Source: Chloroflexi bacterium HGW-Chloroflexi-2 (lineage in GTDB: Bacteria; Chloroflexota; Anaerolineae; Anaerolineales; Anaerolineaceae). From it: a stretch of DNA of 64,000 bases. The stretch is from NCBI GenBank assembly GCA_002840735.1, contig PHBY01000005.1, positions 124,001 to 188,000 of the forward strand. Reading direction: 5' to 3'. A program made the translations under genes and the position numbers. Of the stretch, positions 45,324 to 46,288 are shown in pieces. Position 1 is the first letter of the stretch. Each line of letters opens with the position of its first letter. The notes under the pieces are model-generated. The model made no database searches. It saw nothing but the letters and a program-made list of their open reading frames with translations, and was not told where the DNA came from.

Positions 45324-45965
45324 GTGAAAATAATCGACCTTGCAACCTGGAAACGGCGTGATCATTACAATCTTTATAAAAATTTAGAATATCCTTACCT
45401 GAATATCAGCGCCAATGTAAATATTGACAATTTATATAACTGGTCGAAAGAACAAAAAATTTCTCTGTTCTCTTGTATTGCCTATCTGACATCACGTGCT
45501 GCCAATCAAATACCAGAGCTACGAATGCGCATACGTGCTGACCAGGTGGTTGAACATCCGATGGTACATCCTTCTTTTACCGTGCTTACAGATGATGAAA
45601 CCTTTGGATTTGCTACCATTCGATATTCCCCCGATTTTTCCGAATTTCACCAAAACGTAACCGCTGGTATTGAAGCCACCAAAAAGAATCCCACCATTCA
45701 TGATGAGCCCGGGCGAGACGATATGATATTTCTGACGACTATGACCTGGGTATCGTTTACGCAGATTTCACATCCATTACCACTCAACCCGCCTGATTCT
45801 TTTCCACGGATTACCTGGGGTAAATTTTTTGACCAGGGTCAACAAAGGTTGATGCCCCTCTCGCTATTGGCAAATCATGCCCTGGTGGATGGTCTGCATG
45901 TTGGGAAATTCTTTGAATTGGTTCAGGAGTGGATGAACTATCCAGAACAATTACTGAATAATTAA
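45324..45965 (+). CDS. Chloramphenicol acetyltransferase-like protein (CatA type)
   Basis: This 213-residue protein has the CAT fold. The catalytic histidine motif appears as NHALVDGLHVGKFFELVQ (about 187-204), matching HxxxDGxH. The N-terminal LATWKRRDHYNLYKNLEYPYLNISANVNI and the middle FTVLTDDETFGFATIRY segment are typical. The start codon is GTG at 45324, 2 bp after the methyltransferase stop, so the two are co-transcribed. Such chromosomal CAT homologues need not act on chloramphenicol. Resistance cannot be claimed from sequence. MITE copy 2 follows 19 bp after the stop. Confidence 0.88.
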   Translation: MKIIDLATWKRRDHYNLYKNLEYPYLNISANVNIDNLYNWSKEQKISLFSCIAYLTSRAANQIPELRMRIRADQVVEHPMVHPSFTVLTDDETFGFATIRYSPDFSEFHQNVTAGIEATKKNPTIHDEPGRDDMIFLTTMTWVSFTQISHPLPLNPPDSFPRITWGKFFDQGQQRLMPLSLLANHALVDGLHVGKFFELVQEWMNYPEQLLNN

Positions 45966-45984
45966 CGATTTAACACAATTTATC

Positions 45985-46072
45985 GTGTCCTTTCAATAAT
46001 TAGCGGTCAGGGTGTTTTTGGCGTGCGGATGCACGCCAAAAACACCCGCTTGCCCCGATTTATTGAGATGAT
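45985..46072. mobile_element. 88-bp palindromic MITE-like element, copy 2
   Basis: It has the same ends and length as copies 1 and 3. The central hairpin has a perfect 17-bp stem (GGGTGTTTTTGGCGTGC and its complement) around a 4-base loop. It is flanked by an exact direct repeat ACAATTTATC at 45975-45984 and 46073-46082. This is a 10-bp target-site duplication and direct evidence of insertion. It carries no transposase and must be mobilised in trans. Confidence 0.92.
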
Positions 46073-46090
46073 ACAATTTATCAAATTAAA

Positions 46091-46255
46091 AGCGAGAACC
46101 GCCTGCGAAAGAGGAGGCGGTTCTCATTTTGATTGCTGTGGCACTTTCCTATCGAGTGATCAGGAGGTGTGCCACAGCCGTACGTTGACTACTATTAGTC
46201 ATTGACATCACCTCCTCTTTCAAAGATTGGCGAATTAAAGTGATCAAAGATCACT
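46091..46255 (-). ncRNA. Candidate structured small RNA with CCUCC loops
   Basis: A self-contained minus-strand unit follows a good promoter (46261-46288). In RNA order it holds a 7-bp hairpin AGTGATC/GATCACT (46255-46239), a segment AAAGAGGAGGTGATG (46220-46206), a small hairpin TGACTA/TAGTCA (46201-46186), a perfect 10-bp stem GCTGTGGCAC/GTGCCACAGC (46178-46169 with 46144-46135), and a terminator stem of 11 bp (46125-46094) with a U-rich tail. The loop of the 10-bp stem and the terminator both carry CCUCCU, complementary to AGGAGG. It may be a small RNA, a small-protein mRNA, or both. No known family is recognised. Confidence 0.6.
46149..46202 (-). CDS. Possible 17-residue peptide in the structured RNA
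   Basis: The ORF MTNSSQRTAVAHLLITR begins with ATG at 46202. AGGAGG lies 8 bp upstream, a near-ideal ribosome-binding site. It is too short to compare with families. Its coding region overlaps the two middle stem-loops, so translation and folding would compete. It could be a leader peptide, a small protein, or a chance ORF. The strength of the site and the dedicated promoter and terminator are the only support. Confidence 0.35.
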   Translation of the reverse strand: MTNSSQRTAVAHLLITR

Positions 46256-46260
46256 CCTTA

Positions 46261-46288
46261 ATTATGGCACATTTTTTCAACTTGTCAA
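46261..46288 (-). promoter_or_regulatory. Promoter of the structured small RNA
   Basis: On the minus strand TTGACA (46288-46283) and CATAAT (46266-46261) have a 16-bp spacer. The boxes and spacing are the same as in the pheST T-box promoter. The predicted start is near 46254. Confidence 0.72.

Follow-up and report, generated by a model that had tools for sequence, protein, structure and literature searches.

A candidate self-gating mini-mRNA of Chloroflexota with mutually exclusive helices at its ribosome-binding site

The locus

The element analysed here occupies positions 46088-46288 on the minus strand of the window, by which the whole stretch of 64,000 nucleotides from Chloroflexi bacterium HGW-Chloroflexi-2 (Anaerolineaceae) is meant. 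It is convergent with an ORF at 45324-45965 (+), which we take to resemble a chloramphenicol acetyltransferase-type protein; this neighbourhood is kept in the congeners L009 and L011. Between the acetyltransferase-like ORF and the element lies a long near-perfect inverted repeat (GGTGTTTTTGGCGTGC...GCACGCCAAAAACACC, 46016-46050) that is probably a bidirectional terminator. A comparison of the window with Rfam 15 (4227 families, including Chloroflexi-1, RF01698) gave no match at the gathering cut-off except a SAM riboswitch elsewhere (RF00162, 31845-31952 (+), 93 bits).

A sequence-only reading of this DNA had placed a promoter, hairpins, a strong ribosome-binding site and a terminator on the minus strand. 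The observation is real, and in the sequence check every one of these parts was found where it had been placed. A 17-codon ORF had been overlooked. The parts are as follows.

46283-46288 (-): -35 box TTGACA (sequence check; promoter scan of the elements)
46261-46266 (-): -10 box CATAAT after a 16-nt spacer, predicted start near 46254 (sequence check; promoter scan)
46239-46255 (-): 5' hairpin AGTGATC-TTT-GATCACT (fold; sequence differs among lineages)
46219-46231 (-): upstream GCYATYCT-type motif, possible weak partner of the Shine-Dalgarno sequence (motif conserved)
46204-46216 (-): segment A, extended Shine-Dalgarno sequence AGGAGGTGATGTC (nearly invariant)
46149-46202 (-): 17-codon ORF MTNSSQRTAVAHLLITR, ATG start, TAG stop (168 elements preserve the start, the stop and the phase of AGT)
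46162-46174 (-): segment B, anti-Shine-Dalgarno sequence TGGCACACCTCCT within the ORF (swap and covariation tests)
46135-46178 (-): hairpin B:C, 10-bp stem with arms 46169-46178 and 46135-46144, the latter being segment C (fold; covariation)
46088-46125 (-): intrinsic terminator, whose 5' half carries the Shine-Dalgarno-complementary CCTCCTCTTT in this genus (fold; genus comparison)

The window sequence AAAGAGGAGGTGATG carries AGGAGGT at 46210-46216 (-), and within segment A the stretch AGGAGGTGAT is complementary to GGATCACCTCCTTTCT, the 16S tail of the same genome. The ORF begins 8 nt past GGAGG and finishes within the loop of hairpin B:C, so that the ACCTCCT loop of the window is coding; the 5' arm and part of the loop, which holds both ACCTCCT and the stop codon, belong to the ORF. 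In addition, segments A and B can form a helix of 13 bp with one bulged A (-21.0 kcal/mol). When the best duplex between a Shine-Dalgarno (SD) sequence and the stretch after it was computed for 111 SD-like sites, this site ranked strongest at -21.0 kcal/mol, with the next at -19.7 in the same scan. The predicted 178-nt transcript folds at -69.6 kcal/mol, compared with -41.6 (sd 4.4) for shuffled sequences (z -6.4; 0/200 shuffles as good). The compact structured RNA unit proposed from the sequence is borne out.

Occurrence and common layout

A BLAST search of 100 relatives matched all seven congeners clearly and more distant genomes more weakly; at E up to 0.1, 50/101 genomes matched, chance matches included, and the 30 loci inspected share one common layout. 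With a covariance model built from 28 sequences (R1), matches were obtained in 202/301 genomes of the order (134/174 among those of good quality) and in 186/298 genomes of the class (120/190 of good quality), nearly always as a single copy per genome. In a sample of the phylum, R1 matched 70/301 genomes, 40 of these 70 outside the class, with some matches weak and probably due to chance. R2, a model that uses sequence alone and was built from nine sequences, eight from outside the class, matched 66/301 genomes, weak ones again included. Eight R2 loci were inspected, all of which keep the layout with GGGCAUCACCG or a similar sequence as B. Clear forms of the element do occur beyond the class. 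Genomes are shared among the BLAST, order, class and phylum samples. When 84,980 species genomes were scanned with a pattern, at least 120 stretches were returned; among the 80 matches listed, the titles name Chloroflexi, Chloroflexota, Anaerolineae, Ardenticatenia or Caldilineae and allied groups. Four carriers are presumably complete genomes of cultured strains, namely Chloroflexus aurantiacus, C. aggregans, a Roseiflexus and Herpetosiphon aurantiacus. In the genome that we take to be a Herpetosiphon (L124, 1227-1701, -), the element adjoins the 3' end of a 23S rRNA gene.

A search of the element's own genome for a second copy gave only short chance matches, a plasmid search gave no match, and a scan of viral contigs with a Chloroflexia-type pattern gave 0. 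Among 18 related loci the sole Rfam match was LSU rRNA in L124, and a sub-threshold Rfam scan brought nothing near the cut-off. No description of the element was found in the open-licence PMC literature, of which the coverage was partial. It looks, on sequence grounds, like an undescribed kind of translation-controlled RNA.

The element is absent from many genomes of the family and class, among the genomes listed mainly from those of two genera of the same family (g15, g17), and is thus dispensable. Two loci are impaired: in L182 a premature stop precedes B, and in L011, from the same genus, the element (near 1501-1623) is 98% identical over 123 nt to that of the window and is without the 3' arm of the hairpin and the terminator. 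As judged from this comparison, L011 is a natural partial loss.

For the counts given below, 181 oriented loci were reduced to 168 elements. Repeats (L048, L098, L132, L203), loci whose picked site lacks an ORF (L122, L123, L150), loci that were too weak (L112, L118, L120, L121), the truncated L011 and the prematurely stopped L182 were dropped. Outside the 181 are L113 and L119, which have no SD, and the intact-looking L058, L097, L176, L198 and L201, whose variant SDs were missed by the pattern. The 168 elements are related, some nearly identical (e.g. L090-L092), and their counts are not independent events. Covariation was examined in alignment A3 of 58 class sequences, cut from 60 references with L091 and L092 left out.

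Across the 168 elements the order of parts is a strong promoter, segment A, an ORF of 14-20 codons with B inside (13-16 codons in the distant loci inspected by eye), the stop, segment C and usually a terminator. A promoter scoring at least 9/12 lies upstream in 159/168 elements as compared with 36/168 shuffled controls, mostly 70-87 nt before the SD, and a terminator-like structure follows 140/168. An RNA of roughly 150-190 nt is predicted.

Two helices that share segment B

The helix between B and C is firmly supported by covariation. In the 58 class sequences 564/564 cells are paired and 8/10 pairs show two-sided changes; two-sided cells number 48 as compared with 8.7 in shuffles, and slid controls fail. 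A first alignment of 28 sequences had given 8/11 two-sided pairs and 97% pairing, a biased count as the ends had been picked by inverted repeat. Native partners pair better than swapped ones in 165/168 elements.

The helix between A and B is supported as well, though with less force, by partner swaps and by covariation weaker than that of B:C. Segment A reads AGGAGGUGAUGYC and B, depending on lineage, GGCAUCCCUCCU, GCAUCACCUCC or GGGCAUCACC, which gives a helix of about 10-13 bp. Its mean energy is -23.6 kcal/mol for native partners, -21.2 for swapped partners and -12.4 for shuffled B, the native combination being better than the swapped one in 143/168 elements and better than shuffled B in 168/168. 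In the 58-sequence alignment 96.5% of cells are paired, and the 19 two-sided cells, as compared with 8.9 in shuffles, were reached in 0/500 of these. Pairs that vary on both sides number only 2, equalled by 185/500 shuffles, and the outermost pair is broken in 21/56 sequences. The positions where A mismatches the 16S tail are informative: G9 faces C in 58/58 sequences and C/U10 faces G in 58/58. Moreover, L198, which lies outside the counts, has an A-U pair turned into U-A, swapped on both sides of A:B. That A and B match where A mismatches 16S, together with this two-sided swap, argues for direct pairing of A with B. Since the GGCAUCC or GCA part of B is needed by both helices, A:B and B:C are mutually exclusive. 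Homologues with compensatory changes, on which the sequence-only reading had staked its claim, are hence present in the form of B:C covariation and partner swaps, and its proposal that the ribosome-binding site can be hidden in mutually exclusive ways is upheld.

Further pairings were considered. The upstream motif was tried as a conserved partner of the SD and rejected, since partner swaps do not support it (native better in 86/168 elements); against shuffles the support is weak (native better in 115/168). Pairing of the terminator CCUCC with the SD is real in the prefix folds of the window RNA, where the SD next pairs with the terminator stretch CCTCCTCTTT while the terminator is incomplete. 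It does not belong to the core, as CCTCCTCTTT follows the element in 7/8 genus members (it is absent from the truncated L011) and CCTCC is found in the stretch matching its position in only 11/161 other elements; by this comparison the terminator CCUCC is a genus-level extra. The alternative pairing of AGTGATC with GATCACT has to be given up as a core part, since it is lineage-specific, with AGTGATC upstream of the element in 5/8 genus members. An antisense promoter in GATAGTAGT, considered by eye, was dropped because this stretch is not kept in distant members.

Folding of successively longer prefixes of seven RNAs indicates an order of events. The first partner of the SD is the upstream GCYAUCCU stretch; B follows, and once C is present the SD turns back to the upstream stretch. 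This switch is clear in 4/7 RNAs (L008, L067, L085, L168), while L146, L106 and L107 show only partial pairing of B. Most of the predicted end states leave the SD bound to the upstream motif, and it is hence better described as released from B than as open.

The similarity of B to the 16S tail permits another explanation, namely a trans-acting sRNA in which the anti-Shine-Dalgarno sequence of hairpin B:C (CCUCC or UCACCUC) mimics this tail and covers the SDs of target mRNAs, as in cuckoo/alpha-r14 RNAs, with the ORF being secondary. In line with this, when members of the class are folded, CACCU falls on an unpaired side of the hairpin, along with a small inner hairpin, and B includes CCTCC in 112/168 and CACCTC in 61/168 elements. 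However, B pairs with A also where A departs from 16S complementarity, the loop is variable besides the anti-Shine-Dalgarno sequence and thus provides no specific seed, and a kept frame and stop position would be needless for such an RNA. Such an sRNA function appears unlikely.

The short reading frame

The ORF starts with ATG in 165 and GTG in 3 of the 168 elements and stops with TAA in 81, TAG in 77 and TGA in 10. AGT triplets are distributed over the three phases relative to the ORF as 258 in frame, 4 and 3, and this holds at every SD-start spacing. From this bias it follows that the frame is probably translated. The distance from B to the stop is 15-16 nt in 106/168 and 12-19 nt in 147/168 elements. 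Compared with codon shuffles, stops are in excess in the minus-1 frame (352 vs 276, sd 9) and depleted in the plus-1 frame (83 vs 116, sd 7).

Some further features of the frame were observed. Within codons 2-8, a minus-1-frame UAG or UAA occurs in 165/168 elements, and codons 2-5 mostly end in U. The spacing between SD and start peaks at 8 nt (97/168) and 11 nt (50/168), both of which place the AUG within GGUGAUG in frame with the ORF start.

The encoded peptide is a different matter. In the first half of the ORF the three codon positions have changed 460, 528 and 494 times, i.e. equally often, so that selection at the peptide level is weak, and the rise in synonymous changes is slight (0.28 vs 0.17). 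Translation thus looks conserved and the peptide hardly so. Ser is in excess in the peptides. A serine-sensing role via the AGU codons was considered, but as the first letter of codon 4 varies (NGU in 124/168), it is no more than an idea. The sequence-only reading had left the choice between a CCUCC-loop small RNA and a small-protein switch; with a short ORF kept in frame, the latter was the better guess.

A further candidate is a mini-mRNA with a peptide product, silenced by SD-hiding hairpins until needed, as in type I toxin mRNAs such as that of AapA3, whose anatomy is outlined as a 5' stem-loop, upstream and in-ORF anti-SDs and sequential formation (PMC6733600). The Ser excess and the conserved start would fit, as would the hiding of the SD by an in-ORF anti-SD, for which swaps and covariation speak here, while the upstream anti-SD is unsupported by swaps. 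Yet the peptides show no hydrophobic character (mean GRAVY 0.03; >1 in 6/168), their C-terminal half follows the RNA, with B in a different reading frame in L183 and the Chloroflexia forms, and a broadly conserved element that is nearly always single-copy is unlike typical toxin loci. On balance, a peptide as the main product is considered quite unlikely.

Weak peptide-level selection might also suggest a purely structural RNA, in which the ORF is a by-product of an AG-rich unstructured segment between A and B. The phase of AGT relative to ATG regardless of SD-start spacing, the stop at a fixed distance past B and the excess of minus-1-frame stops over codon shuffles all speak against a by-product and render this explanation very improbable.

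Genomic context

In 83 loci the longest downstream ORF was found 52 times on the opposite strand and 29 times on the strand of the element, the other 2 loci lying at a contig edge. Neighbour clusters differ among lineages, no downstream gene being consistently attached. In different lineages the neighbours presumably include a DUF3048-type lipoprotein upstream, a facing phosphofructokinase and a photolyase in the same direction. As the downstream genes are inconsistent and mostly on the opposite strand, the element is viewed as a free-standing unit. Control of the next gene, by a leader, an attenuator or a riboswitch, was also weighed. A short ORF, alternative helices and a terminator are customary in attenuators, and a photolyase-like gene does follow in the same direction in 8 loci, but with downstream genes that vary and are more often on the other strand, a terminator that generally shares no bases with C and no anti-terminator in the examples inspected, this is highly improbable.

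Proposed mechanism

Taken together, the data point to a self-gating mini-mRNA, i.e. a stand-alone, translated RNA, for which the probability is put at roughly 0.6 from the comparison of sequences. The architecture of the gate as such is held with considerably greater confidence. In this scheme, the strong promoter would drive an RNA of the predicted length that ends at its own terminator. As B emerges during transcription, helix A:B would close the ribosome site; as C emerges just past the stop, it would pair with the 5' part of B, and B:C would release the site. As 15-16 nt separate the end of B from the stop in the majority of elements, a terminating ribosome would sit between B and C, whereupon B could re-close A behind it. 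Re-closing behind each ribosome would let ribosomes pass one at a time.

With no consistent downstream gene and a poorly conserved peptide, regulated translation itself seems to be the conserved trait. That the act of translation, with an output in trans, is what selection has maintained is put forward tentatively, at somewhat less than even odds. The output could conceivably be a state of the RNA, such as an anti-Shine-Dalgarno sequence shown in a hairpin or the titration of 30S subunits, or a Ser-rich peptide; an action in trans by the RNA itself or through its translation is favoured over a peptide or leader function. More speculatively, and rather doubtful as it stands, the element may be a phylum-wide housekeeping riboregulator that senses the state of the translation machinery. 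Ribosomes that initiate and terminate would then drive the flip-flop of SD, in-ORF anti-SD and post-stop arm, and the RNA state so reached (free anti-Shine-Dalgarno sequence or captured 30S) would adjust translation at large. If true, this would amount to a free-standing attenuator without an attached gene.

An RNA gene found, usually as a single copy, in roughly two of every three genomes sampled from the order and the class, and recognisable in other lineages of an ancient phylum, is likely to be of importance to the bacteria that carry it. SD-hiding metastable hairpins and leader ORFs, usually studied apart, are here combined without a downstream gene, which raises the question of whether translating a tiny frame can be a signal in itself.

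Comparison with known systems

The Downstream-peptide/yfr6 RNAs of cyanobacteria are outlined as conserved structured RNAs tied to a short ORF without a larger gene (PMC2864571), which the element resembles. It has no Rfam match to this family, and its structure extends into and past the ORF.

In the Sinorhizobium meliloti attenuator leader that encodes peTrpL, the leader peptide can, according to PMC7298713, act away from its operon. The short leader-type ORF inside alternative RNA helices is common to both, whereas no operon stands behind the terminator of the element; as to an attenuated gene, no single gene or operon lies downstream in the element's orientation throughout the 83 loci.

Cuckoo/alpha-r14 sRNAs have three hairpins with CCUCCUCCC in each, as summarised in PMC10746234. 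The comparison drawn in the sequence-only reading holds in so far as an anti-Shine-Dalgarno sequence is displayed in a hairpin loop. It fails in that CCUCCUCCC occurs in 2/168 elements and that the primary complement of B is the SD of the element itself. The cuckoo motif CCTCCTCCC is found in just 2/168, CCUCCUCCC in unpaired regions is not a feature of the 168 elements, and instead of three hairpins, as described in that source, there is one conserved anti-SD hairpin, B:C, whose sequence is different and which shares its RNA with an ORF and a complementary SD.

Among the systems compared, the mRNA of the type I toxin AapA3 of Helicobacter pylori appears to work most alike. As far as outlined in PMC6733600, it has a 5' stem-loop, a strong SD, one anti-SD before and another inside the ORF, and SD-hiding hairpins that are mutually exclusive and proposed to arise co-transcriptionally; a 5'-3' interaction locks the finished RNA until 3' processing frees it, and the peptide is a toxin controlled by the antisense RNA IsoA3. 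In the element, by contrast, B would be released by C past the stop rather than by 3' processing of a 5'-3' lock, the peptide, as noted above, is not hydrophobic, and the element has no known antitoxin. What the two have in common is a short mRNA whose SD would be hidden by mutually exclusive anti-SD hairpins, one of them within the ORF.
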